A stretch of DNA of 64,000 nucleotides from Craspedostauros australis. Lineage: Eukaryota; Bacillariophyta; Bacillariophyceae; Mastogloiales; Achnanthaceae. Below the pieces are notes generated by a model, which was not told where the DNA came from, ran no database searches, and saw only the letters and a list, made by a program, of their open reading frames with translations. Positions 3,445-44,998 of this stretch are shown in pieces. A program made the position numbers and the translations under genes. Position 1 is the stretch's first letter; each line of letters starts with the position of its first letter. The stretch spans positions 659,095 through 723,094 of the forward strand of contig JAMXDE010000031.1 of the NCBI GenBank assembly GCA_026770025.1. The letters run 5' to 3'.

Positions 3445-3450
3445 GCCGCA

Positions 3451-4235
3451 TGTCGAGATGTACATGTGAGTATATGTCAAGATGTACGTGTATATGTGCA
3501 TCGTTCACCCGTTATTCTCTCATACGCACTTGGACGGTATAACTATACTCGTGTCGATAGTATGCTGTGATTCGTCAGAATTACAGAGGAAACGGAACAC
3601 ACAAAAAGGGGCAAGATTTCTGGAGGAAATTTGCAAATAACGATTTCTGGAAGAATCAGAAGATCGTCCGTCCATGCATCAATGGTACCAAGAGAGTCTC
3701 GAGGTACTTCCCAACTAAACCTCAGATGACGATATCATCTGACAGACTACTGCATCACCAATGGAACGTGACATCTGGAGAGCAGAAGGACGCCTACTGA
3801 CGTCGACAGGATGTCAACATGTCACCACGTCGACAGCTGTCTCCAAGTCAGAGCAGGAGGCGAAGATACGATGACCCATGAAGATCATGGATACTGAAGG
3901 TGAACTTCAAATGGTAAGTACTCATGGAGTAGAAGCCAGTACTGAATGAACAGAGTGTCGAATGCGGAGTACGCATCGAACACGAAGCATTGTGTAGCAC
4001 GAGCACACGATGATGAGAGAGAGAATACAGAGAGGAGCGAGAGAGGATCTCGGGTACCGACTCATAGTCGGAGACCGAATCTACGAAACAGATTGAAGCG
4101 CCGAGAGCATCGGGCAAGAGAACAAACGGACACCGAGAGTATCGGAGTGCCAACGTAATGAAATAGCAAACAGACGACTATCAACCAACACCATCTTCCA
4201 CAATCGTAGGTTACCGTGAGCGGAACTTGCCAACA
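3451..4235 (+). repeat. 5' LTR of copia copy 1
   Basis: The LTR starts tgtcgagatg and ends ttgccaaca. Its limits were fixed by comparison with the 3' copy, where both flanks diverge at once. It contains a short (GA)n run near 4015-4030. Confidence 0.95.
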
Positions 4236-7300: not shown

Positions 7301-10300
7301 CGGCCGTTCAGTACGGATGGAAAATCATCGGCGAGATGCCGGTATGTCGTGACTGCGCGGTCGCGAACGCAAGAGTGAAGAATATTCCGAAGGCAACTAT
7401 TCCAAGAGCTACTCGCCGCGGCGAACGGTTCTTCATTGACATTAGTTACACTAAACACATAAGCTTCGGAGATAAACGCTACTGGACCCTGATCGTGGAC
7501 GACTGCACGGATCACTGCTGGAGTTTCTTTCTCAAGAACAAGAGTGATCAACCAGGATACATCAAACGATTCATCCAGACGATCAAGTCACAGACTGGTG
7601 ACCAACAGATCATCTTCCGAGGTGACAACAGCGAAGAGAACAAATCCACGGAGGATATTCTCATTGATGCAGGACTCAACATGAAATTCGAATACACGGC
7701 ATCGAACACGCCGCAACAGAACGGAAGAGTGGAACGCAAGTTCGCGTACCTCTACACCAAGATTCGCTCCATGCTCAACGGAGCACAGCTCGATGAAGAG
7801 TATAGGCATGGCCTGTGGGCAGCAGCTGCTAGCACTGCCACCGCCATCGCCAACATCACCGTAGCGAAGAACCAGAGGGAGTCACCACATCGACAATTCT
7901 TCGGCAACGATCCACCATATGCGGACGCGCTCCGCACATTTGGAGAGGTGGGTGTTGTGAAGACTACCTACGGCGGGATTACCGCGAAACTCAAGAACAG
8001 AGGAGAAGAGATGGTGTTCATCGGATATGCACACCAACATGCATCAGGGGTCTACAACATGTACAGACCATCGACCAAGTCTCTCATCTGTTCACGGGAC
8101 ATCAAGTGGCTCAACCAATCATACGGACAATTCCGTGGCTGGGCACCAGCACCAAACATATCCAACGAAACAGGAACAACGGACGCAGACGGCTTCACAA
8201 CCATCGGACGGAAGGGAGCAACGCCAAGGACGGCAACGCGTCAAACATCGGAAGCGAAGAGAGTATCTTTCGCTGACAGCAACAGGTACTACATCCTATC
8301 AGACAGCAATGATGAGGATAATGAGGACGACGGAGTAGTGACTCAACTAATCCAGAATGACGAGGAAGATCGGAGCGAATCCAATCATGAGGATGACGAA
8401 ATCCTACCCTCCGGCGACGAAGCCGATGACGAGACAGGTGTTACCCCTCCGAATACACCAGCGAGGTCTACACATGATACACCATCCAGATCTCCACCGA
8501 GCAAGCCAAACAAGCGTGACATAGCTAGAAAGGAGAGGATCCGACGTCACGAAGCACGAGGCAGGAAGGGAGAAGCTAATCCCAAGCCAACCGCAGGGAA
8601 GAGTATTCCCAGAGCTCTGCGCGAGCTCGAAGACTTCAACGAACGAGGTCGAAAGGAAGAAGGCTATGAGAGTGATCCATCATCCAATGAGGAAAGTGAC
8701 GAACTCAGCGACGAGATGATCGACAACTCCAACAACGAAACTACAGATGATGAAGAAATCGAAGACGAAGATGAAGAGATCGAGATCACTCATCATAGCA
8801 CAACAGGACTATACGGAATGAATGCAATCATTACCGAATCACCGGCGATCGACATCGGACTGTCGATGCAGGACAAGAATGAGGAACAAGAGAAGCACAT
8901 CGAACCTACAACGTTCGACGGAGCCTTCAATCACCCAGATCCTATCCATCGAAAGGGATATAGAGCAGCCATCAAGAAAGAGTTCGACTCCATGGATACA
9001 CGCAAGGTGTATAGCAAGATCAGACGAGACGCCATCCCACGCGGCCGCAGATGCTGCAAGTGCAAATGGGTCTTCAAGTTGAAGCGTGACGGCACACATC
9101 GAGCGCGGCTCGTTGCATGTGGCTATTCACAAGTTGCAGGAGTAGACTTCCAAGAGCATTACTCACCCGTCATCCATGACGTGACCTATCGGGTCATGAT
9201 GGTGATCATGCTAATCAAGAAGATGGACTGCGCACTCGTCGATGTCGTAACGGCATTCCTACACGGAGACCTCGACGAGGAGATCTACATGAACTGTCCC
9301 AACGGGATGGATCATCAACCAGACGAAGCCCTGACCCTACACAAGCCAATCTACGGACTTGTGCAGAGCGCCAGGCAATGGTTCAAGATGTTGGTATCGA
9401 CCCTCAAGAATATCAACTTCGAACAGAGCGCAGCAGACCCGTGCCTGTTCTACAGGAAGACGAACGAAGGAAGCATGATCGTGGCCATCTACGTGGACGA
9501 TTGCTTCTGTTGCGGAGACTCCAAGGCACTGGAGACATTCCTGAAGGACATCCAAGGCAGCAAGTTCAAGGTGACAATCGAGCGCGGACTCGGAGACTAC
9601 CTCAGCTGCAACATCGAACTGAACCATGACAAGACTAGAGCGACATTGCGTCAACCACATCTCATCCGACACCTCATCGAAGAGTTCGGAACCAAGGTTG
9701 AGAAGATGCAACGTTATGGGACACCGGGAACCCCGGGTCAAATCATCGTACGACCATCCGAAGATAACGGACTGCAGAAGGTCGGACCGGAAGAACATGC
9801 CGAATACCGCCGAGGCGTCGGTATGCTACTCTTCCTCATCAAGCACTCGCGACCAGATATCGCGAACCCTGTGAGGGAACTCTCCAAGGTATTGATCGGG
9901 CCCACCAAGGCCGCAATGAAGGAGATGTATCGGATCATCAAGTATGTGATCGATACAAAGGACTATGGATTGAAGATCCATCCAGCGCGTCCAGACAATG
10001 ACGGCTGGGACATGGAGCTCTTCTGCGATAGCGAATATGCAGGAGACAAGAACACAAGAATTAGCGTAGGGGGATTCATCCTATACCTGTGCAAGGTACC
10101 AATTCTTTGGCGATCCAAGGCACAGAAGGCCGTCACACTCAGCTCATCCGAAGCAGAATACGTTGCCCTTTCCGAAGCAGCAAAGGAGATCTTCTTCGTC
10201 ATGCAGCTACTCGAAAGTGTGGGCGTCCCAGTGAAGACACCGATCAAGGTCCGTGTGGACAACATCGGAGCAATCTTCATCGCCAAGAACCCATCAACAT

Positions 10301-10488
10301 CCCAACGATCGCGGCACATCGACGTGCGCCATCACTACGTGAGGAACATGGTAATCAACAAAACCATTGAAATCATTTTTGTCAAATCCGAGCAGAATAC
10401 AAGCGACGGATTCACCAAGAACATCAAGGCCGACTTACAACGTGAACATGAGAAGTCGTACCTTGACACATCGAGAACATTCGAATGA
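4318..10488 (+). CDS. copia gag-pol polyprotein, copy 1
   Basis: This 2,056-residue frame encodes all retrotransposition functions. In order: Gag, two CCHC knuckles (residues about 388-401 and 432-445), a highly acidic spacer followed by a conserved unnamed domain (about 600-800), an aspartic protease (LADSGAS, about 832), the HHCC integrase zinc finger (LHRMLGH near 979, CRDC near 1009), the integrase core (FIDIS about 1039, RGDN about 1100, E of GRVERK about 1138), reverse transcriptase (DVVTAFLHGD and YVDD near 1725) and RNase H (FCDSEYAGD about 1902, SSSEAEY about 1943). The ATG lies 82 bp inside the 5' LTR end. No frameshift separates Gag from Pol. One oddity is Glu at residue 1106, where copies 2 and 3 have Gly just after the catalytic GDNS. 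Confidence 0.95.
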   Translation: MSEEEELKDIPLSNPTIKREEGASDTPPREEKEATAATVLLGADASAIDETEEERSARLHRKEKRILKAIKQEETGVTKSIRTAKQGGKSETPPGGEFVTKTISAQQQAKTEESTTQKQTETKGASAPTTKQRTNMATSANMNKRRIKAPMFSGEQEDYSAWESQAKAYARAQKTRDVMLGKTKVPTVSEIAAATDEDKEAMEEIYELGCDCFSDLILMMDAEKGKGKQAIQYINQCISDDYPEGDAHAAWNVLAEKFRPSDAVTKIKLKRQFNNEKMKRDTDPDIYITQLESLRSRLHDVKYEITDEEMIMQILSTVSVEYKTHVVNLQHQLTFNPELITINTIRGVLRTAYATHRGGKAYVDDFQDSNTKSNDTGFTSTGNFKGTCHNCGVYGHRSADCPERKKPNNKKNNNNNNKMNGKRNKGSGFKGKCNYCGIFGHREAECRKKKFNEKKKADEQANTATQGHDKSGHEMVLSAKDMPLCMLVSDDYIEDSFFDNFEYVGSDDEVQDDEIIPEWLSEEPIIHEVDPRREVSYECCFNAHDLIGSYGDEAEMDDEANDSDIEEAMSDDDDDADEDGADEDNEADRGAAPPPPAAGNNRSGIFDENDSDESEDGNHPDDSFNPNERVVYPGNIDFPPIDDPNRSNYLHRHDTVPYATETALVIQKQLIFDAVMEAGVKLFPGVAQGVLRPIWVNMMGSILSENFRSIEEILANSVVINRILETAETETIPETDLHYILGGCMRVLLRERPRVHPYDPATGSHRNSTIPSDYAQLPDDMDDEDHHPPYNEDGVHEDDDDGSFNDEIAAAAVEQLHELSTKYKDKVNKDTWLADSGASCHIVNSDAALFNVRHIKSFVQVGDSTKLDSPKMGSIRLKIKQRDNTGHIIRLDDVKYTPKMAVNLFSTNKALYNGYQLGNNGILMDIINGSGMKIVFDRVFPTSNGFITGVQMHPIMPTDDDKACTAIIKNPSKEISAVNLHRMLGHAPLETMKRTAVQYGWKIIGEMPVCRDCAVANARVKNIPKATIPRATRRGERFFIDISYTKHISFGDKRYWTLIVDDCTDHCWSFFLKNKSDQPGYIKRFIQTIKSQTGDQQIIFRGDNSEENKSTEDILIDAGLNMKFEYTASNTPQQNGRVERKFAYLYTKIRSMLNGAQLDEEYRHGLWAAAASTATAIANITVAKNQRESPHRQFFGNDPPYADALRTFGEVGVVKTTYGGITAKLKNRGEEMVFIGYAHQHASGVYNMYRPSTKSLICSRDIKWLNQSYGQFRGWAPAPNISNETGTTDADGFTTIGRKGATPRTATRQTSEAKRVSFADSNRYYILSDSNDEDNEDDGVVTQLIQNDEEDRSESNHEDDEILPSGDEADDETGVTPPNTPARSTHDTPSRSPPSKPNKRDIARKERIRRHEARGRKGEANPKPTAGKSIPRALRELEDFNERGRKEEGYESDPSSNEESDELSDEMIDNSNNETTDDEEIEDEDEEIEITHHSTTGLYGMNAIITESPAIDIGLSMQDKNEEQEKHIEPTTFDGAFNHPDPIHRKGYRAAIKKEFDSMDTRKVYSKIRRDAIPRGRRCCKCKWVFKLKRDGTHRARLVACGYSQVAGVDFQEHYSPVIHDVTYRVMMVIMLIKKMDCALVDVVTAFLHGDLDEEIYMNCPNGMDHQPDEALTLHKPIYGLVQSARQWFKMLVSTLKNINFEQSAADPCLFYRKTNEGSMIVAIYVDDCFCCGDSKALETFLKDIQGSKFKVTIERGLGDYLSCNIELNHDKTRATLRQPHLIRHLIEEFGTKVEKMQRYGTPGTPGQIIVRPSEDNGLQKVGPEEHAEYRRGVGMLLFLIKHSRPDIANPVRELSKVLIGPTKAAMKEMYRIIKYVIDTKDYGLKIHPARPDNDGWDMELFCDSEYAGDKNTRISVGGFILYLCKVPILWRSKAQKAVTLSSSEAEYVALSEAAKEIFFVMQLLESVGVPVKTPIKVRVDNIGAIFIAKNPSTSQRSRHIDVRHHYVRNMVINKTIEIIFVKSEQNTSDGFTKNIKADLQREHEKSYLDTSRTFE

Positions 10489-18347: not shown

Positions 18348-21300
18348 ATGAGCGAGGAAGAGGAATTGAAAGACATCCCTCTGTCCCAACTGGCTATCAA
18401 GCAAGAAGAAGGTGCGAGCGAGACTCAACTTCAAGAACAGAAGGAAGCAGCTGCGGCTACTGTCCTATCAGGCGCAGACGCAAGTGCGATCAACGAGACC
18501 GAAGAGGAACGGTCTGCAAAAGTACACCGCGAGGAGAAGAGAATTCTCAAGGCGGTCAAGCAAGAGGAGACTGGTGTGACGGAGAGCATTCGCACAGCCA
18601 AACAGGGTGGGAAAAGTGAGACACCACCAGGAGGAGAATTTGTGACGAAAACAATCTCCGCGCAACAACAGGCGAAAATCGAAGAATCGGCAACACAGAA
18701 ACCGACGGAAATCAAGGGCGCGAGCGCACCAACGACGAAACAACGAACCAACATGGCGACATCAGCCAACATGAACAAGCGACGCATCAAGGCGCCGATG
18801 TTCAGCGGTGAACAGGAAGACTACAGCGCATGGGAATCCCAAGCGAAAGCATACGCTCGTGCACAGAAGACAAGAGACGTGATGTTGGGCAAGACCAAAG
18901 TGCCAACAGTGAGCGAGATCGTGGCAGCCGCCGGCGAGGCCAAGGAAGCGATGGAGGAAATCTACGAGCTGGGATGCGACTGCTTCAGCGATCTGATCCT
19001 CATGATGGATGCAGAGAAAGGAAAAGGCAAGCAGGCCATCCAGTACATCAACCAATGCATCTCCGACGACTACCCTGAAGGAGATCCACACGCAGCGTGG
19101 AACGTTCTCGCGGAGAAGTTCCGCCCATCCGACGCAGCAACGAAGATCAAACTCAAGCGTCAGTTCAACAACGAAAAGATGAAGAGAGACACGGACCCCG
19201 ACATCTACATCACACGACTTGAGGGTCTACGATCGCGTCTCCACGATGTCAAGTACACGATCACAGACGAAGAGATGATCATGCAGATCCTCAGCACGGT
19301 GAGCAATGAATACAGAACCCACATCGTGAACTTCCAACACCAACTCACGTTTAATCCGGAACTCGTTACCATCAACACGATCAGAGGAGTACTCCGCACA
19401 GCATACGCCACTCATCAAGGAGGCAAAGCGTACATCGACGACTTCCAAGACAGTAACACGAAGAGCAACGACACTGGCTTCACGAGCACCGGTAAATTCA
19501 AGGGTACCTGCCACAACTGTGGTGTGTATGGTCACAGATCCGCCGATTGCCCAGAACGCAAGAAATCGAACAACAAGAAAAACAACAACAACAACAACAA
19601 CAACAAGATGAACGGAAAGCGCAACAACTACCGCAACAAAGGAAGCGGCTTCAACGGCAAGTGCAACTACTGTGGCATCTTCGGACACCGCGAGGCGGAG
19701 TGCCGAAAGAAGAAGTCCAACGAAAGCAAGAAGAACAACGAACAAGCCAACACGGCAACGGAAGGACACGACAAGAGCGGACACGAGATGGTACTCTCGG
19801 CAAAGGACATGCCGCTCTGCATGTTGGTGTCCGAGGACTACATCGAAGACTCCTTCTTCGATAACTTCGAGTACGTCGGGAGTGACGACGAAGTGCAGGA
19901 CGATGAGATCGTCCCGGAGTGGCTCAGCGAGGAGCCAATCATCCACGAAGTGGATCCAAGACGCGAAGTGAGCTACGAATGCTGCTTCAACGCGCACGAC
20001 CTGATCGGTCCATACGGCGACGAAGCCGAGATGGGCAACGAGGCCAACGATAGCGACATCGAAGAGGCCATGAGCGAAGAGGCCGACGACGAGATCAACG
20101 ACAATGATAGAGGCCGAGACGAAACGAACGGCGGCGCAGCACCGCCTCCTCCAGTGGCGGGGAACAACAGATCGGGTATCTTCGACGAAGATGACAGCGA
20201 CGAAACCGAGGATCATCCGGACGACAGCTTCAATCCAAACGAGCGTGTCGTCTATCCAAGAGACATCGACTTCCCACCGATTGGGAATCCCAACGAATCA
20301 AACTACCTCCATCGTCATGACACCATTTCGTATGGAACGGAAACAGCATTGGTAATCCAGAAGCAACTCATCTTCGATGCTGTGATGGAAGCAGGAGTGA
20401 AACTGTTCCCAGGAATCGCACAAAGAGTGCTCAGACCAATATGGGTGAACATGATGGGATCCATCCTATCTGAGAACTTCAGATCAATCGAAGAGATTCT
20501 CGCCAATTCGGTTGTGATCAATCGCATACTGGAAGCAGCCGAGACAGAGACGATCCCAGAAACGGATCTGCATTACATCCTTGGAGGATGTATGCGCGTA
20601 CGCTTACGCGAACGACCACGCGTCCACCCATACGATCCAGCCACAGGATCACATCGAAACAGCACGATTCCATCGGACTATGCGCAACTACCCGACAACA
20701 TGGATGACGGAGATCATCATCCTCCATACAACGAAGACGGAGTCCACGAAGACGACGATGACGGCAGCTTCGACGACGAGATAGCTGCAGCAGATGTGGA
20801 GCAGCTCCACGAGCTGAGCACCAGATACAAGGACAAGGTCAACAAGGACACCTGGCTCGCCGACAGCGGAGCTTCGTGTCACATCATCAACTCGGACGCC
20901 GCTCTTTTCAACGTGCGGCACATCAAGTCATTCGTCCAAGTGGGAGACAGCACGAAACTGGACTCTCCCAAGATGGGATCCATTCGCTTGAAAGTCAAGC
21001 AACGAAACAACACTGGCCACATCATCCGGCTCGATGATGTGAAGTACACACCGAAAATGGTGGTGAACCTTTTCTCTACGAACAAGGCTCTGTACAATGG
21101 TTACCAGCTTGGTAACAACGGCATTCTAATGGACATCATCAACGGATCCGGAACGAAGATCGTATTCGATCGAGTCTTCCCCACATCCAACGGATTCATC
21201 ACGGGAGTGCAGATGCATCCCATCATGCCGACAGACGACGACAAGGCTTGCACAGCCATCATCAAGAATCCATCCAAGGAGATCAGCGCAGTGAACCTGC

Positions 21301-24300
21301 ACCGAATGCTCGGCCACGCGCCACTCGAGACCATGAAGCGGACGGCCGCCCAATACGGATGGAAGATCATCGGCGAGATGCCAGTAGGTCGCGACTGCGC
21401 GGTCGCGAATGCGAGAGTGAAGAACATTCCGAAGGCAACGATTCCAAGAGCAACTCGCCGCGGCGAACGACTCTTCATTGACATTAGTTACACTAAACAC
21501 ATAAGCTTCGGAGACAAACGCTACTGGACCCTGATCGTGGACGACTGCACGGATCACTGCTGGAGTTTCTTTCTCAAGAACAAGAGTGATCAACCAGGGT
21601 ACATCAAACGATTCATCCAAACGATCAAATCACAGACAGGTGATCAACAAATCATCTTCCGAGGAGACAACAGCGGAGAGAACAAATCCACGGAGGATAT
21701 TCTCATCGATGCAGGACTCAACATGAAATTCGAATTCATGGCATCGAACACGCCGCAACAGAACGGCAGAGTGGAACGCAAGTTCGCGTACCTCTACACC
21801 AAGATACGCTCCATGCTCAATGGAGCACAACTCGACGAAGAGTATAGGCATGGCCTGTGGGCAGCGGCTGCGAGCACTGCCACCGCCATCGCCAACATCA
21901 CTGTAGCGAAGAATCAGAAGGAGTCACCGTACCGCCAATTCTTCGGCAGCGATCCACCATACGCGGATGCACTCCGCACATTTGGAGAGGTGGGTGTTGT
22001 GAAGACTACTTATGGCGGGATCACCGCCAAACTCAAGAACAGAGGAGAAGAGATGGTGTTCATTGGATATGCACACCAACACGCATCAGGGGTCTACAAC
22101 ATGTACAGACCATCAACCAAGTCACTCATCTGTTCACGCGACATCAAGTGGCTCAACCAATCATACGGACAGTTCCATGGCTGGGCACCAGCACCGAACA
22201 TATTCAGCAAAGTAGGAACAACGGACGCAGACAGCTTCACGACCATCGGACGGAAGCGGGCGATGCCAAGGACGGCAATGCGTCGAACATCAGAAGCGAA
22301 GAGAGTATCTTTCGCTGACACCAACAGGTACTACATCCTATCGGACAGCGACGATGAGGATAATGAGGACGACGGAGTAGTGACTCAACTAGTCCATAAC
22401 GACGAGGAAGATCGGAGCGAATCCAATCATGAGGATGACGAAACCATACCATCCGGCGACGAAGCCGACGATGACACAGGCGTCACTCCTCCGAATACAC
22501 CAGCGAGGTCTACACATGACAGTCCATCCAGATCTCCACCAAGCAAACCAAACAAGCGTGACATAGCCAGAAAGGAGAGGATCCGACGTCACGAAGCACG
22601 AGGCAGGAAGGGAAAAGCTAATCTCAAGTCAACTGCAGGGAAGAGTATTCCCAGAGCTCTGCGCGAGCTCGCAGACTTCAACGAACAAGGTCGAAAGGAA
22701 GAAGGCTATGAGAGCGATCCATCATCCAACGAGGCGAGTGACGAACTCAGCGACGAGATGATCGACGACTCCAACAACGAAACTACAGATGATGAAGAAA
22801 TCAAAGACGAAGATGAAGAGATCGAGATCACTCATCATAGCACAACAGGACTATACGGAATGAATGCAATCATTACCGAATCACCAGCAATCGACATCGG
22901 ATTGTCGATGCAGGACGAGAACAAGGAACCAGAGAAGCACATCGAACCTACAACGTTCGACGGAGCCTTCAATCACCCAGATCCTATCCATCGAAAGGGA
23001 TATAGAGCAGCCATCAAGAAGGAGTTCGACTCCATGGATACACGCAAGGTGTACAGCAAGATCAAACGAGACGCCATCCCACGCGGCCGCAGATGCTGCA
23101 AGTGCAAATGGGTCTTCAAGCTGAAGCGTGACGGCACACATCGAGCGCGGCTCGTTGCATGTGGCTATTCACAAGTCGCAGGAGTAGACTTCCAAGAGCA
23201 TTACTCACCCGTCATCCATGATGTAACCTATCGGGTCATGATGGTGATCATGCTAATCAAGAAGATGGACTGCGCACTCGTCGATGTCGTAACGGCATTC
23301 CTACATGGAGACCTCGACGAGGAGATCTACATGAACTGTCCCAACGGGATGGATCATCAACCAGACGAAGCCCTGACCCTACACAAGCCAATCTACGGAC
23401 TTGTGCAGAGCGCCAGGCAATGGTTCAAGATGTTGGTATCGACCCTCAAGAATATCAGTTTCGAACAGAGCGCAGCAGACCCGTGCCTGTTCTACAGAAA
23501 GACGAACGAAGGAAGCATGATCGTGGCCATCTACGTGGACGATTGCTTCTGTTGCGGAGACTCCAAGGCACTGGAGGCATTCCTGAAGGACATCCAAGGC
23601 AGCAAGTTCAAGGTGACAATCGAGCGCGGACTCGGAGACTACCTCAGCTGCAACATCGAACTGAACCATGACAAGACTAGAGCGACATTGCGTCAACCAC
23701 ATCTCATCCGACACCTCATTGAAGAATTCGGAACCAAGGTTGAGAAGATGCAACGCTATGGGACACCGGGAACCCCGGGCCAAATCATCGTACGACCATC
23801 CGAAGACAACGGATTACAGAAGGTCGGACCGGAAGAACATGCCGAATATCGTCGAGGCGTCGGTATGCTACTCTTCCTCATCAAGCACTCGCGACCGGAT
23901 ATCGCGAACCCTGTAAGGGAACTCTCCAAGGTATTGATCGGGCCCACCAAGGCCGCAATGAAGGAGATGTATCGGATCATCAAGTATGTGATCGATACAA
24001 AGGACTATGGATTGAAGATCCATCCAGCGCGTCCAGACGACGACGGCTGGGATATGGAGCTCTTCTGCGATAGCGAATATGCAGGAGACAAGAACACAAG
24101 AATCAGCGTAGGGGGATTCATTCTATACCTATGCAAGGTACCAATCCTTTGGCGATCCAAGGCACAGAAGGCCGTCACACTTAGCTCATCCGAAGCAGAA
24201 TACGTTGCCCTTTCCGAAGCGGCAAAGGAGATCTTCTTCGTGATGCAGCTACTCGAAAGTGTGGGCGTCCCAGTGAAGACACCGATCAAGGTCCGTGTGG

Positions 24301-24530
24301 ACAACATCGGAGCAATCTTCATTGCCAAGAACCCATCAACATCCCAACGATCGCGGCACATCGACGTGCGCCATCACTACGTGAGAAACATGGTAATCAA
24401 CAAAACCATCGAAATCATTTTCGTCAAATCCGAGCAGAACACAAGCGACGGATTCACCAAGAACATCAAGGCCGACTTGCAACGTGAACATGAGAAGTCG
24501 TACCTTGACACATCGAGAACATTCGAATGA
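18348..24530 (+). CDS. copia gag-pol polyprotein, copy 2
   Basis: A 2,060-residue frame with the same domain order as copy 1: two CCHC knuckles, acidic spacer, conserved unnamed domain, protease LADSGAS, integrase, RT with YVDD, RNase H. Its start context and 82-bp leader match copy 1. The reading frame is open, but codon 1014 (21387-21389) is GGT where copies 1 and 3 have a Cys codon. This removes the first Cys of the integrase HHCC zinc finger (VGRDC instead of VCRDC) and probably disables integration. The element may still be moved in trans. Confidence 0.95.
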   Translation: MSEEEELKDIPLSQLAIKQEEGASETQLQEQKEAAAATVLSGADASAINETEEERSAKVHREEKRILKAVKQEETGVTESIRTAKQGGKSETPPGGEFVTKTISAQQQAKIEESATQKPTEIKGASAPTTKQRTNMATSANMNKRRIKAPMFSGEQEDYSAWESQAKAYARAQKTRDVMLGKTKVPTVSEIVAAAGEAKEAMEEIYELGCDCFSDLILMMDAEKGKGKQAIQYINQCISDDYPEGDPHAAWNVLAEKFRPSDAATKIKLKRQFNNEKMKRDTDPDIYITRLEGLRSRLHDVKYTITDEEMIMQILSTVSNEYRTHIVNFQHQLTFNPELVTINTIRGVLRTAYATHQGGKAYIDDFQDSNTKSNDTGFTSTGKFKGTCHNCGVYGHRSADCPERKKSNNKKNNNNNNNNKMNGKRNNYRNKGSGFNGKCNYCGIFGHREAECRKKKSNESKKNNEQANTATEGHDKSGHEMVLSAKDMPLCMLVSEDYIEDSFFDNFEYVGSDDEVQDDEIVPEWLSEEPIIHEVDPRREVSYECCFNAHDLIGPYGDEAEMGNEANDSDIEEAMSEEADDEINDNDRGRDETNGGAAPPPPVAGNNRSGIFDEDDSDETEDHPDDSFNPNERVVYPRDIDFPPIGNPNESNYLHRHDTISYGTETALVIQKQLIFDAVMEAGVKLFPGIAQRVLRPIWVNMMGSILSENFRSIEEILANSVVINRILEAAETETIPETDLHYILGGCMRVRLRERPRVHPYDPATGSHRNSTIPSDYAQLPDNMDDGDHHPPYNEDGVHEDDDDGSFDDEIAAADVEQLHELSTRYKDKVNKDTWLADSGASCHIINSDAALFNVRHIKSFVQVGDSTKLDSPKMGSIRLKVKQRNNTGHIIRLDDVKYTPKMVVNLFSTNKALYNGYQLGNNGILMDIINGSGTKIVFDRVFPTSNGFITGVQMHPIMPTDDDKACTAIIKNPSKEISAVNLHRMLGHAPLETMKRTAAQYGWKIIGEMPVGRDCAVANARVKNIPKATIPRATRRGERLFIDISYTKHISFGDKRYWTLIVDDCTDHCWSFFLKNKSDQPGYIKRFIQTIKSQTGDQQIIFRGDNSGENKSTEDILIDAGLNMKFEFMASNTPQQNGRVERKFAYLYTKIRSMLNGAQLDEEYRHGLWAAAASTATAIANITVAKNQKESPYRQFFGSDPPYADALRTFGEVGVVKTTYGGITAKLKNRGEEMVFIGYAHQHASGVYNMYRPSTKSLICSRDIKWLNQSYGQFHGWAPAPNIFSKVGTTDADSFTTIGRKRAMPRTAMRRTSEAKRVSFADTNRYYILSDSDDEDNEDDGVVTQLVHNDEEDRSESNHEDDETIPSGDEADDDTGVTPPNTPARSTHDSPSRSPPSKPNKRDIARKERIRRHEARGRKGKANLKSTAGKSIPRALRELADFNEQGRKEEGYESDPSSNEASDELSDEMIDDSNNETTDDEEIKDEDEEIEITHHSTTGLYGMNAIITESPAIDIGLSMQDENKEPEKHIEPTTFDGAFNHPDPIHRKGYRAAIKKEFDSMDTRKVYSKIKRDAIPRGRRCCKCKWVFKLKRDGTHRARLVACGYSQVAGVDFQEHYSPVIHDVTYRVMMVIMLIKKMDCALVDVVTAFLHGDLDEEIYMNCPNGMDHQPDEALTLHKPIYGLVQSARQWFKMLVSTLKNISFEQSAADPCLFYRKTNEGSMIVAIYVDDCFCCGDSKALEAFLKDIQGSKFKVTIERGLGDYLSCNIELNHDKTRATLRQPHLIRHLIEEFGTKVEKMQRYGTPGTPGQIIVRPSEDNGLQKVGPEEHAEYRRGVGMLLFLIKHSRPDIANPVRELSKVLIGPTKAAMKEMYRIIKYVIDTKDYGLKIHPARPDDDGWDMELFCDSEYAGDKNTRISVGGFILYLCKVPILWRSKAQKAVTLSSSEAEYVALSEAAKEIFFVMQLLESVGVPVKTPIKVRVDNIGAIFIAKNPSTSQRSRHIDVRHHYVRNMVINKTIEIIFVKSEQNTSDGFTKNIKADLQREHEKSYLDTSRTFE

Positions 24531-34540: not shown

Positions 34541-37230
34541 ATAATAATAATAACGCACTGATTATCCCCTCTTCAGAGGGTTGCCTCGAAAGCTTTAACG
34601 TCGCCGGCGTACAGCAAGCCCATACGGGCCGACTGCGCACAAACGACCTACCTAGGTCTCTCACTCCTGGGCCTACCGCTGGTTGCCACTCCACCGGGCC
34701 ATAGAACATACCGCACTGGGCATTCGGAATCCTCCGCTATGCACTTCACTCTCTTTTTGTCTTCACCACCAAGGGTTTCCTGCCCCCTGCTGCACTCTGT
34801 GCTACGGCCTGGCGCGTTTCGCCCTCCTGGCTGCTGTTGTTGTTGGGTTGGATCGTTTCCGTCGTCGTCGTGCGCTGGCTGCCCGCGCCGCCTGCACGTG
34901 CTTTACCCACATGATCTGGTTAGCCGCCGACTGCCGCCGTACCTCTATTTCTGAGGTGAGCGTTAGCAAGCGGGCGTCATCTCCTGTAAGGTGCCTCACA
35001 CCTTTTCTCCACTCTTTCCGCACCGCTGTCGCTGCTTCTTGTGCGGCCTTCGCTGCCGCTATCCCTGCTTCGCTTTCATGCAGCACCTTATTCCTGGCCT
35101 CCCACGCCTTTCACCTCACTTCCCACAGCCCAACCATGGCTCTCGCGATCCAATTTGCCGAAGTCCCTGGCTACTCGTGGAGTTCCATCGTCTGCTCCTG
35201 CATTGATCCCCATCGCTTGGACCAGCGCCCTCTTACCATCATATTCCATCCGATGCCATCTTGCTCTACTACTGCTTTGCTCAACTGTGGCCCTGTTTCC
35301 GTGCTCAACTTCCGACCATCGCACCACGCGTCTATCTGTCGGACCAGCTCGCGCACCATGAGTCCACTTCCCCGCCCTGCCAACATACTCATTTCCCATT
35401 CCTTCATCGCCGCTCGGCGCACCGTTACTGCTGCCGGGTGTTGGCATTGCATAATGTGATCCGTCGTTTCCTCACATTGCTTGCATACCGGGCACTGACC
35501 GTCCGTCCAGAATTTCCACTTGTGCATGTTGCGGCCCACCGGTCCGAAGCTGCACGCATGCTTCGCTACCCATTTTCGTCGCGCCGGTCCAATTCGTCCC
35601 ATTGCCAGCCGCGCCGCTACGATGCCCACTTTCGACTCCTGTTCCTTGAGTATCCTACCCACACCTCGCTGCCATGCCGTGGTACGTTGCCCCTGCACGT
35701 AATTGCGGAGCTCGTCGGTTAGATTTGTGCATGCCTTCCGCCTTCCCAGCCATACTGACCACTCCTTCGAATCCCATTCACTGTCTTCGCACCCCGCATC
35801 CGCTGACTGCGCAGCACCTGCGCGTTTGTCGACTTCATCGTTCCAATACGCAAATTCGTCGCGCACAACGCCCCTATTGCGTTCCAGCTGATGACCATAT
35901 ACGTGCCAATATTCTAGCTTCACTGGCAATCGCCGTTGCAAGCTTCGTATCTCTCGCAGTATGTCGAAGTGCTGGACCGCAGTACCGACATCCTGTGTAT
36001 ATTGTACTGCGTGGATGCCTGCCATTTTGTTGTCGCACGCCACCACAATTGTCTGTCCCGTGATGTCTCGTCGTTTCGGGCTTCGTCGAATAATGCTCTC
36101 CACTTTCCTCAGGGCCTGGAGGATTCCGCCGATTTCTGCCCGATAGGCACTTTGCACCTGTGCTCGCCCTTGCACTGCTGCCGCCGCTGATACCCACCCT
36201 TTCCGTCTTCCTCGCTGGTTGAGAGAATACGCTGCCGTACTTCTGCCGTTTTTGAACGAACCGTCTGTACTCACAACTGCTTCTCCCTTGATCACCGCTT
36301 CCAGCCATTGCTCTTCTGCTTGTTTCAGCTTAGCATTGGTCCTGTCGTTCGTCCGTTGGACTCGGCCTCCTATGCCTACCACCCGTAGCTCTTGTCGTTC
36401 TTCTCGCACGAACACTGCTCGCCCTCCTTCTGGTGGTTCTGTCGATTGCTTCTGTCGGCGTTTGTACCGTTCCATTCCTGGGACCATGCCCTCGTGCCCT
36501 TGCCATTCTACCCAGCTGGACTGGCTCTCTCGTGTCCACAACGTCAGCCCGTCCTCGGCTCGCACCGCGCTGGCGTGCTGAATATCCCAATCGTCGCTGT
36601 GCGCCGCCGTCCTGGCTACCTTCGCCAAAGCCTGTTTCCATAACGCCCAGTCTTTTCCCGGCAACGGCCCCTGTCTTGGCCATCTGATGTGACTTCTCCC
36701 TTTCCACTCCCCACTTTCATCGCTTGGGCTTCCTGCTACCACACGCCTGCTTCGTGCCTCGATCACATCTGCCACGCTTACTGCCTTCATCGCTACTCGG
36801 CATCTGTTCAGTCTGATTCTTTGCTCTTTGCTGTACTTTGCTTTAGTCAGCGCCACCATCAGCCACTCATCGTTCTCATGTAATAGCCCTGCTGTTTCCG
36901 TTTTCTCCTTCAGCCTGATATTGCATTCATACATCTCGCGCCAGACTGTTTTGATCCAACAGTCTGTGGCCAGAAATGCCCACTTGCTGAAGTTGATTTC
37001 GAACATCGACTCGCCCACTCCGACTTCGGTTTTCATCGCTTGAATGCTTCCTCTCAACAATCGTCCGGTCATAGTGTCACGACTTCCATGTTCCAGCACC
37101 ATTTTCACATGCTCAGCTACCTGTGTTGTATGTAGCTCATGGATGTTGGCTCCCAACCACTCGTGTGACGCATACGCCATCGCCCTCGGGAATCCTTTGT
37201 TGAAGCCAATTTTTGACATCATCGTTGCTC
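34541..37230 (-). mobile_element. 5'-truncated LINE inside a copia LTR
   Basis: About 2.69 kb, flanked by the 13-bp direct repeat gtgctacacgata (34528-34540 and 37231-37243). The repeat is LTR sequence, so the insertion is younger than copia copy 3. On the minus strand the element ends in a (TTA)n tail (34541-34553). Only the 3' part of the Pol frame is left, which is typical of target-primed reverse transcription that stopped early. Confidence 0.85.
35171..37222 (-). pseudogene. LINE Pol C-terminal fragment with RNase H
   Basis: About 683 residues of open frame start at the LINE boundary; the 20 or so codons upstream are LTR sequence. No RT catalytic motif remains. The RNase H domain shows Asp in VVSTDGS, Glu in YRAEIGG, Asp in VACDN and Asp in NDEVDKRAG, the full acidic set. 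A CCHC-type knuckle follows (CPVCKQC...H...C, about residue 600 of the frame). RT, then RNase H, then a C-terminal knuckle is the order in several LINE clades; which clade cannot be told without a search. The frame has no stop, so the copy is recent. Confidence 0.8.
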
Positions 37231-37806
37231 GTGCTACACGATACTCCATGTTTGATGCGTACTCTGTATTCGACACTCCATTCATTCAGTACTGGCTCCT
37301 ACTCCATGAGTACTTACCATTTGAAGTTCACCTTCTGTATCCATGATGCTGATGCCCTTCGGTCATCGGATCTTCACCTCCTGCTCTGACTTGGAGACAG
37401 AGGTCGACGTGGTGACACGATGACATCCTGTCGACGTCAGTAGGCGTCCTTCTGCTCTCCAGATGTCACGTTCCATTGGTGATGCAGTAGTCTGTCAGAT
37501 GATATCGTCATCTGAGGTTTAGTTGGGAAGTACCTCGAGATTCTCTTGGCACCATTGATGGATGGACGGACGATCTTCCAATTCTCTCAGAAATCGTTGA
37601 TTGCAAATTTCCTCCAGAAATCTTGCTCCTTTTCGTGTGTTCCATTTCCACTGTAATTCTGACGAATCACAGTATACTATCGACACGAATGTAGTTGTAC
37701 CGTCCAAGTGCGTATGAGAGAATAACGGGTGATCGATGCACATATACACGTACATCTTGACATATACTCACATGTACATCTCGACACCCTTCCTGTGTGC
37801 ATTCGG

Positions 37807-40800
37807 TCATTCGAATGTTCTCGATGTGTCAAGGTACGACTTCTCGTGTTCACGTTGCAAGTCGGCCTTGATGTTCTTGGTGAATCCGTCGCTTGTGTTC
37901 TGCTCGGATTTGACGAAAATGATTTCGATGGTTTTGTTGATTACCATGTTTCTCACGTAGTGATGGCGCACGTCGATGTGCCGCGATCGTTGGGATGTCG
38001 ATGGGTTCTTGGCGATGAAGATCGCTCCGATGTTGTCCACACAGACCTTGATCGGTGTCTTCACTGGGACGCCCACACTTTCGAGTAGCTGTACGACGAA
38101 GAAGATCTCCTTTGCTGCTTCGGAAAGGGCAACGTATTCTGCTTCGGATGAGCTGAGTGTGACGGCCTTCTGTGCCTTGGATCGCCAAAGGATTGGCACC
38201 TTGCACAGGTATAGGATGAATCCCCCTACGCTGATTCTCGTGTTCTTGTTTCCTGCGTATTCGCTATCGCAAAAGAGCTCCATGTCCCAGCCGTAATTGT
38301 CTGGACGCGCTGGATGGATCTTCAGTCCGTAGTCCTTTGTATCGATCACATACTTGATGATCCGATACATCTCCTTCATTGCGGCCTTGGTGGGCCCGAT
38401 CAATACCTTGGAGAGTTCCCTCACAGGGTTCGCGATATCTGGTCGCGAGTGCTTGATGAGGAAGAGTAGCATACCGACGCCTCGGCGGTATTCGGCATGT
38501 TCTTCCGGTCCGACCTTCTGTAATCCGTTGTCTTCGGATGGTCGTACGATGATTTGACCCGGGGTTCCCGGTGTCCCATACCGTTGCATCTTCTCAACCT
38601 TGGTTCCGAATTCTTCGATGAGGTGTCGGATGAGATGTGGTTGACGCAATGTCGCTCTAGTTTTGTCATGATTCAGTTCGATGTTGCAGCTGAGGTAATC
38701 TCCGAGTCCGCGCTCGATTGTCACCTTGAACTTGCTGCCTTGGATGTCCTTCAGGAATGCCTCCAGTGCCTTGGAGTCTCCGCAACAGAAGCAATCGTCC
38801 ACGTAGATGGCCACAATCATACTTCCTTCGTTCGTCTTCCTGTAGAACAGGCACGGGTCTGCTGCGCTCTGTTCGAAGTTGATATTCTTGAGGGTCGATA
38901 CCAACATCTTGAACCATTGCCTGGCGCTCTGCACAAGTCCGTAGATTGGCTTGTGTAGGGTCAGGGCTTCGTCTGGTTGATGATCCATCCCGTTGGGACA
39001 GTTCATGTAGATCTCCTTGTCGAGGTCTCCATGTAGGAATGTCGATACAACATCGACGAGTGCGCAGTCCATCTTCTTGATCAGCATGATCACCATCATG
39101 ACCCGATAGGTTACATCATGGATGACAGGTGAGTAATGCTCTTGGAAGTCTACTCCTGCGACTTGTGAATAGCCACATGCAACGAGCCGCGCTCGATGTG
39201 TGCCGTCACGCTTCAGCTTGAAGACCCATTTGCACTTGCAGCATCTGCGGCCGCGTGGGATGGCGTCTCGTTTGATCTTGCTGTACACCTTGCGTGTATC
39301 CATGGAGTCGAACTCCTTCTTGATGGCTGCTCGATATCCCTTTCGATGGATAGGATCTGGATGATTGAAGGCTCCATCGAATGTCGTTGGTTCGATGTGC
39401 TTCTCTGGTTCTTTGTTCTCGTCCTGCATCGATAGTCCGATATCGATTGCTGGTGCCTCGGTGATGATTGCGTTCATCCCATATAGTCCTGTTGTGCTAT
39501 GGTGGGTAATCTCGATCTCTCCTTCATCTGTGATTTCTTCGTCATCTGTAGTTTCGTTGTTGGAGTCGTCAATCATCTCGTCGCTGAGTTCGTCACTCGC
39601 CTCATCGGATGATGGATCGCTCTCATAGCCTTCTTCCTTTCAACCTTGTTCGTTGAAGTCTGCGAGCTCGCGCAGAGCTCTGGGAATACTCTTCCCTGTA
39701 GTTGACTTGGGATTAGCTTTTCCCTTCCTGCCTCGTGCTTCGTGACGTCGGATCCTCTCCTTTCTGGCTATGTCACGCTTGTTTGGTTTGCTTGGTGGAG
39801 ATCTGGATGGACTGTCATGTGTAGACCTCGCTGGTGTGTTCGGAGGAGTGACGCCTGTGTCATCGTCGGCTTCGTCGCCGGATGGTATGGTTTCGTCATC
39901 CTCATGATTGGATTCGCTCCAATCTTCCTCGTCGTTATGGACTAGTTGAGTCACTACTCCATCGTCCTCATCATCCTCATCGTCGCTATCCGATAGGATA
40001 TAGTACCTGTTGGTGTCAGCAAAAGATACTCTCTTTGCTTCTGATGCTTGACGCGTTGCCGTCCTTGGCATCGCCCGCTTCCGTCCGATGGTCGTGAAGC
40101 TGTCTGCGTCCGTTGTTCCTACTTTGCTGAATATGTTCGGTGCTGGTGCCCAGTCACGGAATTGTCCGTATGATTGGTTGAGCCACTTGATGTCGCGTGA
40201 GCAGACGAGTGACTTGGTCGATGGTCTGTACATGTTGTAGACCCCTGATGCGTGTTGGTGTGCATATCCGATGAACACCATCTCTTCTCCTCTGTTCTTG
40301 AGCTTGGCGGTGATCCCGCCATAGGTAGTCTTCACGACACCCACCTCTCCGAAAGTGCGGAGTGCATCCGCGTATGGTGGATCGCTGCCGAAGAATTGTC
40401 GATGTGGTGACTCCTTTTGATTCTTCGCTACGGTGATGTTGGCGATGGCGGTGGCAGTGCTCGCAGCCGCTGCCCACAGGCCATGCCTATACTCTTCGTC
40501 GAGTTGTGCTCCGTTGAGCATGGAGCGGATTTTGGTGTAGAGATACGCAAACTTGCGCTCGACTCTACCGTTCTGTTGTGGCGTGTTGGACGCCGTGAGC
40601 TCGAATTTCGCATTCAGTCCAGCCTCGATGAGAGTATCTTGTGTGGCCTTGTTCTCTCCGCTGTTGTCTCCTCGGAAGATGATCTGTTGGTCACCAGTCT
40701 GTGATTTGATCGTTTGGATGAATCGTTTGATGTACCCTGGTTGATCACTCTTGTTCTTGAGAAAGAAACTCCAGCAGTGATCCGTGCAGTCGTCCACGAT

Positions 40801-43800
40801 CAGGGTCCAGTAGCGTTTATCTCCGAAGCTTATGTGTTTAGTGTAACTAATGTCAATGAACAGACGTTCGCCGCGGCGAGTTGCTCTTGGAATCGTTGCC
40901 TTCGGAATGTTCTTTACTCTCGCATTTGCGATCACGCAGTCGCGACATACCGGCATCTCGCCGATAATCTTCCATCCGTATTGGGCGGCTGTCCGCTTCA
41001 TGGTTTCGAGTGGCGCGTGGCCGAGCATTCGATGCAAGTTCACCGCGCTGATCTCCTTGGATGGATTCTTGATGATGGCTGTGCAAGCCTTGTCGTCGTT
41101 CGTTGGCATGATGGGATGCATCTGCACTCCTGTGATGAATCCGTTGGCTGTGGGGAAGACTTGGTCGAATACGATCTTCGTTCTGGATCCGTTGATGATG
41201 TCCATTAGAATGCCGTTGTTACCAAGCTGGTAACCGTTGTACAGAGCCTTGTTTGTGGAGAAAAGGTTCACCACCATTTTCGGTGTGTACTTCACATCGT
41301 TGAGCCGGATGATGTGGCCAGTGTTGTCTCGTTGCTTGACTTTCAAGCGAATGGATCCCATTTTGGGAGAGTCCAGCTTTGTGCTGTCTCCCACTTGGAC
41401 GAATGACTTGATGTGCCGCACGTTGAAGAGAGCGGCGTCCGAATTGACGATGTGACACGAAGCTCCGCTGTCGGCGAGCCAGGTGTCCTTGTTGACCTTG
41501 TCCTTGTATCGAGTGCTTAGCTTGTGGAGCTGCTCCACGGCTGCTGTGGCCATCTCATCCATGAGGCTGTCTGCCTCTTCATCTTCATGCACTCCATCTT
41601 TGTTGTATGGATTGTGGTTCTCATCCGTTTCGTCATCGCTTGGTAGTTCAGCGAAGTGCGCTGGTACTGTGCTGTTTCAATGAACTCCGGTGACCGTGTC
41701 ATACGGTGTGACGCGTGGTCGCTCGCGCAGGAGCACCTGCATGCACCCTCCGAGCACGTAGTGCAAGTCCAGTTTGGAGAGTTCCTCCTCTTCGTTTGCT
41801 TGCAGTAGTCGGTTGAGGATGGCTGCGTTTGCGAGGATCTCTTCAATCGATTTGAAGTTATCGGATAAGATGGTGCTTACCATGCTCACCCAAATGTATC
41901 GCAATGGTTCGTTCACGAACCCTGGGAACATCGGTAATGCAGCTGTTAGGACCGCGTCGTAGATGAGCTGCTTCTGCATTCGTTTTGCAGTGACCGTTGG
42001 TTCTGGGAAGGTCTGGAGTCGGTAGATGTCGTCGACTCTTCTGGGATTCGGCTCCAGTGGGAATTGGATTCGAATTGGGTAGACGACAGCTTCGTAGGGA
42101 TTGAATGCATCGCTTGGACGGTCCTCAGCTTCGTCGCTGTCCTCTTCATCGAAGATGCCCGTTCTCTCGTTTCGCATTGCTGCGGGAGGCGGCGCCTCGC
42201 CGCGGTTCACCCCGTCTCTGGTGTCGTCGTCGTCTCCATGTGCGCCGTCCTCGTCGGCGTCTTCGTCTGAGCCGTTCTCGTCGGCGTCTTCGTTGTCTTC
42301 GCTCATTGCCTCTTCGATGTCGCTATCGTTGGCCTCGCTGTCCATCTCGGCTGCGTCGCTGTATGGACCGATCAGGTCGTGCGCGTTGAAGCAGCATTCG
42401 TAGCTCACTTCGCGTCTTGGATCCACCTCGTGGATGATTGGCTCCTCGCTGAGCCACTCCGGGACGATCTCATCGTCCTGCACTTCGTCGTCACTTCCGA
42501 CGCACTCAAAGTTATCGAAGAAGGAGTCTTCGATGTAGTCGTTGGACACCAACATGCAGAGCGGCATGTCCTTTGCCGAGAGTACCATCTCGTGCCCGCT
42601 CTTGTCGTGTCCTTCCGTTGCTGCGTTGACCTGCTCGTCGGCCTTCTTCTTTTCGTTGAACTTCTTCTTTCGGCACTCTGCCTCGCGATGTCCGAAGATG
42701 CCGCAATAGTTGCACTTGCCGTTGAAGCCGCTTCCCTTGTTGCGGTAGTTGTTGCGCTTTCCGTTCATCTTGTTGTTGTTGTTTTTCTTGTTGTTCGATT
42801 TCTTGCGTTCTGGGCAATCGGCGGATCTGTGACCATACACACCACAGTTGTGACAAGTACCCTTGAATTTACCGGTGCTCGTGAAGCCAGTGTCGTTGCT
42901 CTTCGTGTTACTGTCTTGGAAGTCGTCGACGTACGCCTTGCCTCCTTGATGAGTGGCGTATGCAGTGCGAAGTACTCCTCTGATCGTGTTGATGGTAATC
43001 AGTTCCGGATTGAACGTGAGTTGGTGTTGGAAGTTCACGATGTGAGTTTTGTATTCATTGCTCACCGTGCTGAGGATTTGCATGATCATCTCTTCGTCTG
43101 TGATCTCGTACTTGACATCGTGGAGACGCGATCGTAGACTCTCGAGTCGCGTGATGTAGATGTCGGGGTCCGAGTCTCTCTTCATCTTTTCGTTGTTGAA
43201 TTGGCGCTTGAGTTTGATTTTCGTCGCAGCGTCGGATGGTCGAAACTTCTCTGCGAGAACGTTCCACGCTGCGTGTGGATCTCCTTCGGGATAATCGTCG
43301 GAGATGCATTGGTTGATGTACTGGATGGCCTGCTTGCCCTTTCCTTTCTCTGCATCCATCATGAGGATCAGATCGCTGAAGCAGTCGCATCCCAGCTCGT
43401 AGATCTCCTCCATCGCTTCCTTGGCTTCACTGGCGGCTGCCGCGATCTCGCTCACTGTTGGCACTTTGGTTTTGCCCAACATCACGTCTCTCGTCTTCTG
43501 TGCACGAGCGTATGCTTTCGCTTGGGACTCCCATGCGCTGTAGTCTTCCTGTTCACCACTGAACATCGGCGCCTTGATACGTCGCTTGTTCATGTTGGCT
43601 GATGTCGCCATGTTGATTCGTTGTTTCGTTGTTGGTGCGCTCGCGCCCTTGATTTCCGTTTGTTTCTGTGTTGTCACTTTTTCGATTTTCGCCTGTTGTT
43701 GCGCGGAGATTGTTTTCGTCACAAATTCTCCTCCTGGTGGTGTCTCACTTTTACCACTTCGTTTGGCTGTGCGAATGCTCTCCGTCACACCAGTCTCCTC

Positions 43801-44016
43801 TTGCTTGATCGCCTTGAGGATCCTCTCCTTCTCGCGATGTTGCCTTGCAGACCGTTCCTCTTCGGTCTCGTCGATCGCGCTTGCGTCTTCGCCTGATAGG
43901 ACAGTAGCCGCTGCTACTTCCTTCTCTTCTCGTGGTGGAGTCTCACTCGCACCTTCTTCTGGCTTGATAGTCAGGTTGGACAGAGGGATGTCTCTCAATT
44001 CCTCTTCCTCGCTCAT
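37807..44016 (-). pseudogene. copia gag-pol, copy 3, two nonsense codons
   Basis: One frame of about 2,069 codons from ATG 44016 to the stop at 37807 is cut by TGA at 41677-41679 and at 39640-39642. Copies 1 and 2 have CGA (Arg) at both, so each is a C-to-T change in a CpG. Other motifs remain: two CCHC knuckles, LADSGAS, CRDC, GDNSGEN, YVDD and the RNase H motifs. The section between the acidic spacer and the protease (about 41600-42300) is far more diverged from copies 1 and 2 than its flanks. A smaller diverged patch lies between the integrase Asp and Glu motifs (about 40590-40670). Confidence 0.9.
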
Positions 44017-44098
44017 TCAGCCTGCTGCTCTTGAATGATGTTCGTCTTCCTCGCACGATCCGATCCGTGGGCTCGCCCTGATCTATCGTTTATAAACG

Positions 44099-44893
44099 TG
44101 TTGGCAAGTTCCGCTCACGGTAACCTACGATCGTGGAAGATGGTGTTGGTTGATAGTCTTCTGTTTGCTATTTCATTACTTGGCTACTCCGATGCTCTCG
44201 GTGTACGCCCGTTCTCTTGCCCAATGCTCTCGGTGCTTCAATCTGTTTTGTAGATTCAGTCTCCGACTATGAGTCGGTACGCGAGATGCTCTCTCGCTCC
44301 TCTCTGTATTCTCTCTCTCTCTCAACATCATGTGCTCGCGCTACACAATACTCCGTGTTTGATACGTACTCCGCATTCGACACTCTGTTCGTTCAGTACT
44401 GGCTCCTACTCCATGAGTACTTACCATTTGAAGTTCACCTTCTGTATCCATGATGCTGATGTCCTTCGGTCATCGGATCTTCGCTTCCTGCTCTGACTTG
44501 GAGACAGATGTCGACGTGGTGACATGATGACATCCTGTCGACGTCAGTAGGCGTCCTTCTGCTCTCCAGATGTCACGTTCCATTGGTGATGCAGCAGTCT
44601 GTCAGATGATATCGTCATCTGAGGTTTAGTTGGGAAGTACCTCGAGATTCTCTTGGCACCATTGATTGATGGACGGACGATCTTCCAATTCTCTCAGAAA
44701 TCGTTGATTGCAAATTTCCTCCAGAAATCTTGCTCCTTTTCGTGTGTTCCATTTCCACTGTAATTCTGACGAATCACAGTATACTATCGACACGAATGTA
44801 GTTGTACCGTCCAAGTGCGTATGAGAGAATAACGGGTGAACGATGCACATATACACGTACATCTCGACATATACTCACATTTACATCTCGACA
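44099..44893 (-). repeat. 5' LTR of copia copy 3
   Basis: 795 bp from tgttggcaag to tctcgaca, of the divergent subtype with gttggctactcc-like sequence. It is followed by ctcagg, the target duplication. Confidence 0.9.
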
Positions 44894-44998
44894 CTCAGGA
44901 TGCAAAGGGAATACTCTCAGGCACACAGATGACAGTCTTCTATTGATTAGCTGTAGATGGTGTATTGCTGATACACCCCTTGTTGTGAACCAGATTTG

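Follow-up and report, generated by a model that had tools for sequence, protein, structure and literature searches.

The Ty1 and Ty1' elements of Saccharomyces are described as differing in gag and as recombining with each other (PMC7055915), and their inhibitors as each acting on only one of the two subfamilies (PMC12530519, PMC10951436). Onsen copies of Arabidopsis are described as recombining at a high rate (PMC5668417). Judged by titles and the openings of abstracts in the open-access literature, a two-type block of the kind reported below has not been described beyond the work on Ty1. Here, a 64,000-nucleotide stretch of the diatom Craspedostauros australis (hereafter, the window) was analysed together with the single genome used for comparison, an assembly of 74.8 Mb in 90 contigs with eukaryotic content.

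The window contains three elements that belong to the Ty1/copia LTR retrotransposons by their Gag, their domain order and their LTRs. Copies 1 and 2 lie on the forward strand, each with Gag-Pol in a single open frame (4318..10488, 2056 aa, and 18348..24530, 2060 aa, respectively). The 5' terminal repeat of copy 1 (3451..4235, forward strand) measures 785 nt, has TG...CA ends and is 98.5% identical to its partner at 10509-11293, and GCCGCA flanks this copy on both outer sides of the repeats. Copy 3 occupies 37216..44894 on the minus strand, with terminal repeats at 37216-37787 and 44325-44894 that are 96.2% identical over 572 columns; the LTR pair of copy 2 is 89.9% identical. Pfam models identified a copia-type Gag in copy 1 (Retrotran_gag_2, E 1.3e-14, aa 246-345; zf-CCHC, E 6.4e-6, knuckle at aa 386-403, two CCHC stretches), followed by Pol_BBD (aa 832-915), SH3 (aa 1199-1265) and RVT_2 (aa 1573-1791), and the protease and integrase cores were recognised by eye. 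The order of protease, integrase and a copia-type reverse transcriptase (RVT_2) within one ORF is the Ty1/copia arrangement. An initial annotation of this DNA had counted three gag-pol frames. This holds for copies 1 and 2, but the frame of copy 3 is broken into ORFs at 41677-44016, 39640-41592 and 37807-39576 (minus strand, gag-pol running down from 44016), with an in-frame stop at codon 780 (window 41679-41677), where the block described below ends.

Two leucine-rich-repeat ORFs lie among the copia copies on the forward strand (13753-16920 and 32419-33876). They are built from a 24-residue unit in 72-nt repeats, with at least 29 copies in register, and have a 300-nt N-terminal stretch in common at 89% DNA identity. 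Another forward-strand ORF (28271-29224) gave weak helix-turn-helix matches under the Pfam cut-offs (best E 8e-4).

When the first 4.3-4.7 kb of the ORF were compared in 100-nt windows, copies 1 and 2 were 79-99% identical throughout. The identity of copy 3 to either of them was mostly 86-100%, but dropped to 59-68% at nt ca. 1838-2437 of the copy 1 ORF (window ca. 42131-41538), the only long low-identity stretch over the whole element among copies 1-3. The alignment thus contains a sharp island instead of uniform identity, and the strong divergence of the copy 3 block between near-identical Gag and protease parts, as initially annotated, was borne out. The divergence had been placed between the acidic spacer and the protease; it does run to just before the protease, but it begins already inside the spacer, where windows show 73-77% identity. 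The divergent segment of copy 3 (41540..42231, minus strand) is 59-76% identical in DNA to copies 1 and 2, and identity beyond it is mostly 86-100%; its homologue in copy 1 (6058..6777, forward strand) corresponds to ORF nt 1741-2460, where identity between the two block types defined below falls under the identity within types. Protein alignments placed the block core at 6205..6615 in copy 1 and at 20247..20657 in copy 2 (both forward strand, with 91% amino acid identity over the aligned segment), and at 41680..42087 in copy 3 (minus strand, from VVYP... to ...PYDTVTGVH), with the stop directly after. All of the motifs previously listed as a kept core (FPG, IWV.M, ILS.NF.SIEEILAN, DLHY.LGGCM and LRERPRV.PYD) are present in the protein alignment. 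Separately, the integrase region of copy 3 has a private 150-nt window (ca. 40519-40668) at 82-83% identity to copies 1 and 2, and this dip has no association with block type in other copies.

Genome-wide searches revealed two deep block types, type A (copies 1 and 2, including a subtype C) and type B (copy 3). The copy 3 block as query gave 454 candidate places, and among the 150 scored, at least 52 were 74-100% identical and at least 98 were 52-62% identical, with none between. With the copy 1 block, all of the 150 places scored (of 453 candidates) lay at 81-100%, whereas the 150 scored with the C subtype (of 444) graded from 100 down to 80%; the copy counts from all three queries are lower bounds. 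Because the matches to the C query slide in this way, C is best regarded as a branch of A with mosaics. An alignment of 73 rows, namely the three copies of the window plus 70 loci from elsewhere in the genome, held 25 rows of type A, 45 of type B and three unclear by block identity, after the loci duplicating the places of copy 3 (L001) and copy 1 (L031) had been dropped; since loci were picked via block searches, this proportion is not a genome frequency. Some of the other type B copies have an open frame of more than 2000 codons.

The two types are distinct in the block and nearly alike outside it. In most copies, A-B DNA identity was ca. 65% in the block and ca. 91-96% in the flanks, and pairwise medians were 64.7% in the block (n = 1710), 92.1% in gag (n = 1072) and 93.8% in the protease/integrase part (n = 1008). 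In most rows, A and B were as alike in these flanks as members of one type, with degraded copies lower in both respects. Near-fixed differences between 25 A and 45 B copies (a majority of > 85% in > 10 rows of each type, in 60-nt bins) were absent from nt 241-1740 and 2461-3780 of the copy 1 ORF and reached 17 per bin inside the island, where between-type identity fell to 53% (bin medians exclude pairs at ≤ 50% identity). As a control for hidden deep splits unrelated to type, the flanks were also clustered: in 40-codon windows over 59 open rows, an even and deep split appeared only at aa 570-809 (21-24 versus 35-37 rows, 58-77% identity between groups), and elsewhere the top split consisted of one to five odd rows or was shallow (11/48 at 93%, 26/33 at 89%).

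Several further copies are of separate interest. An old copy with two TGA stops (L055, G000:C43:354993-358595) was 68, 67 and 67% identical to copies 1, 2 and 3, respectively, with its Gag part poorly aligned, and its block may represent a third deep type. Other places with two TGA stops among the matches listed were found on C41, C31 and, twice, C5. A 2080-aa frame with one and the same score recurs in many copies, all of the C subtype (e.g., G000 C2:1477222-1477710), which look like a recent burst. The acidic tail before the protease (window 6616-6807 in copy 1) has at least two forms, NEDGVHEDDDDG... and NEYGVHIDEEDED..., which pair with C-type blocks in both combinations.

Relative age was estimated from codon comparisons among the 59 rows whose frame is open over a long stretch (24 of type B and 35 of type A, the latter including C; copy 3 was left out). 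Synonymous divergence in the flanks was alike for A-A, B-B and A-B pairs (dS 0.17-0.24). In the block, dS between A and B was 1.05, with a dN of 0.38 and a dN/dS of 0.36. The split between the two main block types is thus about five times as old as the variation in the flanks, and A has an inner split of its own. The initial annotation had considered that the block might evolve fast, and a rapid diversification within the present family, by positive selection or by a local mutation hot spot, could account for the high A-B divergence, for a block dS within A that is about twice that of the flanks (0.45 versus 0.17-0.22) and for a dN/dS of 1.30 within A and 1.60 between A and C in a nine-residue turn (aa 680-688). 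However, A in this comparison includes the diverged subtype C, the block dS within B (0.16) does not exceed the flank values (0.18-0.24), and dN/dS, taken over the entire block, remained below 1 in all comparisons. As B is normal in this respect and the A-B split is deep, the block is not simply a faster-mutating segment; this explanation is very improbable, and the divergence points instead to an old split.

The notion that the block is under selection fared better. Its dN/dS was 0.22 within A (with C) and 0.15 within B, and values stayed below 1 in every region of this codon comparison, which indicates a coding domain under purifying selection. This constraint appears to be unevenly distributed. 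Nonsynonymous differences between A and B (pN) peaked at 0.40-0.41 in the turn, the loop and the block's N-terminal extension and were lower in the predicted helices (0.17-0.28). In the extension, dN/dS was 0.81 for A-B and 1.12 for C-B but only 0.21 for A-A and 0.22 for B-B; the four predicted helices gave 0.10-0.29 for A-B. Such short pieces hold few sites, some of them saturated, and the high ratio in the turn may reflect either local positive selection or noise. GC3 was lower in the block than elsewhere (0.52-0.59 versus 0.67-0.74), but other parts of the same ORF were low as well; because the low GC3 is not specific to the block, codon use neither supports nor rules out a foreign import.

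A pattern in which near-constraint-free change between types accompanies constraint within them, as for alternative binding surfaces, could arise if A and B bound different host factors (e.g., for nuclear import, chromatin or translation) and thereby came to differ in niche, for instance in where they insert or under which conditions they are expressed. Integration targeting of known Ty1 elements, however, lies in integrase, and both block types occur within the same 64-kb window. We thus consider host-partner binding unlikely.

Discordance between regions argues that the block has moved between elements. Trees of gag (45 rows) and of the protease/integrase part (42 rows, including the long row L018) were built from copies with long open frames, copy 3 being left out. 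The type label changes once on the block tree, whereas the gag tree needs 11 changes (mean of 15 when labels were shuffled) and the protease/integrase tree eight (shuffled mean of 14). Strongly supported branches force at least five changes on the gag tree but only one on the protease/integrase tree, and B as a single clade was rejected with p = 3.6e-8 and p = 0.032, respectively; with a single forced change, the evidence from the protease/integrase part alone is modest. Since labels are still somewhat clustered on both flank trees and few changes are forced in the protease/integrase part, exchange is frequent but mixing incomplete. Linkage decays on both sides of the block. In 35 rows with long open frames (without copy 3), SNPs at aa 590-789 had a mean r2 with type of 0.62-0.81. 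Beyond aa 540-839, the mean in the sixteen 50-aa bins was 0.04-0.20; permutation gave a mean of 0.03 and a 95th percentile of 0.12. All four gametes were found in 3454 of 4371 SNP pairs in gag and 1135 of 1431 in the protease/integrase part, a pattern that repeated mutation can also give.

Individual copies tell the same story. Between L064 (type A) and L003 (type B), identity is 97% in gag and 98.8% in the protease but 62% in the block; in 100-nt windows, L064 is 92-100% identical to the B copies L003 and L022 at nt 1001-1700 and 2501-3400 of the copy 1 ORF and 51-70% identical at nt 1901-2400. Other A-B pairs likewise combine flank segments at 97-99% with a block at ca. 62-65%. Painting of 86 rows with 79 diagnostic sites, which were defined from the same rows, revealed chimeras at the block edges (e.g., L051, L027, L041 and L044), and, in classed rows, no clean switch of type within nt ca. 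1861-2230. Older B copies carried scattered sites of the opposite type, as did L050 and L065, and 53 of the 86 rows had fewer than two such sites. Low homology may be all that keeps A/B crossovers out of the core. Taken together, discordant trees, linkage decay and edge chimeras corroborate the initial view that the block was shuffled. The flanking Gag and protease/integrase sequence behaves as one recombining pool, and the block is very probably an old cassette with allelic forms, which recombination between elements has placed in shared backgrounds many times. Exchange could take place by template switching, as for Onsen, when A and B RNAs packaged together are reverse-transcribed; conversion between genomic copies would be an alternative route.

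This mixing bears on the idea that homotypic contacts of the block in the virus-like particle keep A and B Gag-Pol from co-assembling. A location in the Gag-protease region and a conserved helical core with a diverged extension and loops would suit such an assembly-compatibility module. Yet the A and B flanks have recombined repeatedly, and if this happened in particles, A and B RNAs were co-packaged. Exchange of the flanks thus argues against the block acting as a strict barrier to assembly or packaging, and we regard this possibility as quite improbable.

The block itself is a domain of ca. 135 residues with variable acidic and C-terminal borders, which in this high-copy Ty1/copia family follows the zinc knuckles of Gag and precedes the protease. 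In accordance with the earlier remark that no named function was known for this position, the searches returned no Pfam, PDB sequence or fold match. The blocks of copies 1 and 3 had no Pfam match at E ≤ 1, a search with 17 block members gave PF23970 (a DUF) at E 0.11 as the best match, and no PDB sequence matched better than E 0.48; no known Gag or protease extension was thus found in Pfam or PDB. Structure prediction, which had been proposed alongside the annotation, yielded a helical pattern, although at poor confidence (mean pLDDT 43.8 and 52.3, from the three window sequences) and with no fold match by Foldseek (27 PDB matches at E ≤ 10, none at E ≤ 0.001). The predicted block has an extended N-terminal part followed by four or five helices, at ca. 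aa 658-750 of the copy 1 ORF, again with low confidence.

Three specific candidates were considered. A known Gag-protease insert such as a dUTPase was rejected, as no recognisable domain was found in Pfam. A duplicate of the element's own capsid received an hhalign probability of 0.1%, a comparison of low power given the few sequences and the lack of a reliable fold. A domesticated stand-alone copy was suggested by a 363-aa ORF at C47, which proved to be a piece of a decayed element; a 501-nt stretch at C63 is contained in it.

In a related copia family of the same genome (L085, 25% identity in Gag), the one locus inspected has two zinc knuckles, a short linker and the protease, without the block, and the block was also absent from the stretch fetched at one locus each of three other families, although the stretch of one of these (L088) may not span the Gag-protease interval. 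As these families show none, the block can be considered an extra domain of the family studied here. Searches for block relatives gave 122 pattern matches in viral_contigs and 21 in genome_contigs, none confirmed in either, and an integrase-reverse transcriptase query gave six in viral_contigs, none confirmed; these collections consist of viruses and prokaryotes and therefore say little about diatoms.

Why two forms persist is a separate question from how they move. The main rival to our own proposal requires no selection for diversity. Two long-separated copia lineages may have met by hybridisation or horizontal transfer, after which recombination substituted the sequence of one lineage for nearly all of the other's, and the block, with the domain serving only as a constrained structural spacer, survived in two forms as its low homology suppresses exchange. 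The A-B dS of 1.05 is in line with a long separation, and so are the clean crossovers restricted to block edges in the classed copies. A yeast study also traces the canonical Ty1 gag of S. cerevisiae to horizontal transfer and recombination (PMC7055915). However, a second deep group of many rows is missing from the sampled flanks, and under this scenario one lineage lost its flank trace and yet kept its block in many copies (at least 52 of 150 scored places are type B, with a B-block query, which favours B). Furthermore, the possible third deep type in L055 would suggest a turnover of several types instead of one fusion. Neutral survival after such a fusion is therefore a possible but doubtful explanation. 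Small-RNA escape as a reason for two types was dismissed by argument only, namely that the shared flanks would stay targets.

We tentatively favour a joint reading, which we hold at somewhat short of an even chance, in which the block is an allelic cassette and at the same time a helical specificity module under type-specific restriction. The functional step, that a type-specific inhibitor or partner recognises the module, is drawn by analogy and is slightly more tentative still. The domain would be a small helical module on the Gag or Gag-Pol precursor, a point that we hold weakly. Its conserved helices would preserve a fold common to A and B, and the N-terminal extension, almost without constraint between the types, might decide which inhibitor or partner recognises it. 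If the inhibitor is encoded by the element itself or by the host, as in Ty1/Ty1', the commoner type would be restricted more and the rarer less, so that both would persist, while recombination would carry the favoured cassette into successful backgrounds. Selection may thus keep both types, with neutral persistence as the alternative. The fullest version, a multi-allelic recognition cassette kept by negative frequency-dependent selection through restriction by the host or by elements and moved by recombination, is rather unlikely as a whole.

If that version were true, a population of mobile elements would resemble a sexually reproducing population in which a recognition locus is kept balanced. 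Type-specific restriction would also provide a natural multi-allele system for asking what drives subfamilies and whether recombination helps elements to escape control. Even if the two forms are neutral, the data show, within one genome, the population genetics of a retrotransposon that contains an ancient haplotype block with sharp boundaries. Plasmodium MSP1, with dimorphic surface-antigen alleles, likewise combines a block of old allele families with flanks that recombine; this likeness is one of pattern only, MSP1 being a host-parasite antigen gene and not a multicopy mobile element.

Among retrotransposons, the CoDi copia-like elements of diatoms are not described, in the accessible parts of the sources, as having an extra Gag-protease domain or a two-type block, but they are similarly copia-type, of high copy number and subject to recombination between genomic elements (PMC2806351, PMC8147415). 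The bursts of Onsen in Arabidopsis are comparable in that family members exchange sequence and give mosaic copies, although a deep two-type island is not described in the available part of that report (PMC5668417). Ty1 and Ty1' differ from the present case in that their divergence extends over gag and takes in the capsid part (dS of gag 0.252, PMC7055915), whereas here the capsid and zinc knuckles are common to both types and a separate block downstream differs, much more deeply (dS 1.05). Specificity in Ty1-type copy number control lies in the C-terminal domain of the capsid, and the block here follows the zinc knuckles (hhalign to the capsid 0.1%, from few sequences). That control also has an internal Gag-derived inhibitor (p22), while the present element has no known p22-like product or restriction. 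In both systems, however, two divergent versions of a Gag-region segment of copia-type elements were spread by recombination, an exchange also found here, and in both the segment appears to be under purifying selection (dN/dS 0.496 for Ty1/Ty1' gag in PMC7055915 and 0.36 for the block). The gag of Ty1/Ty1' is the nearest precedent for the two-type block, and if the alleles described here are kept by type-specific restriction, they would add a case of this kind from a host only very distantly related, in which a separate, clean module carries the specificity.
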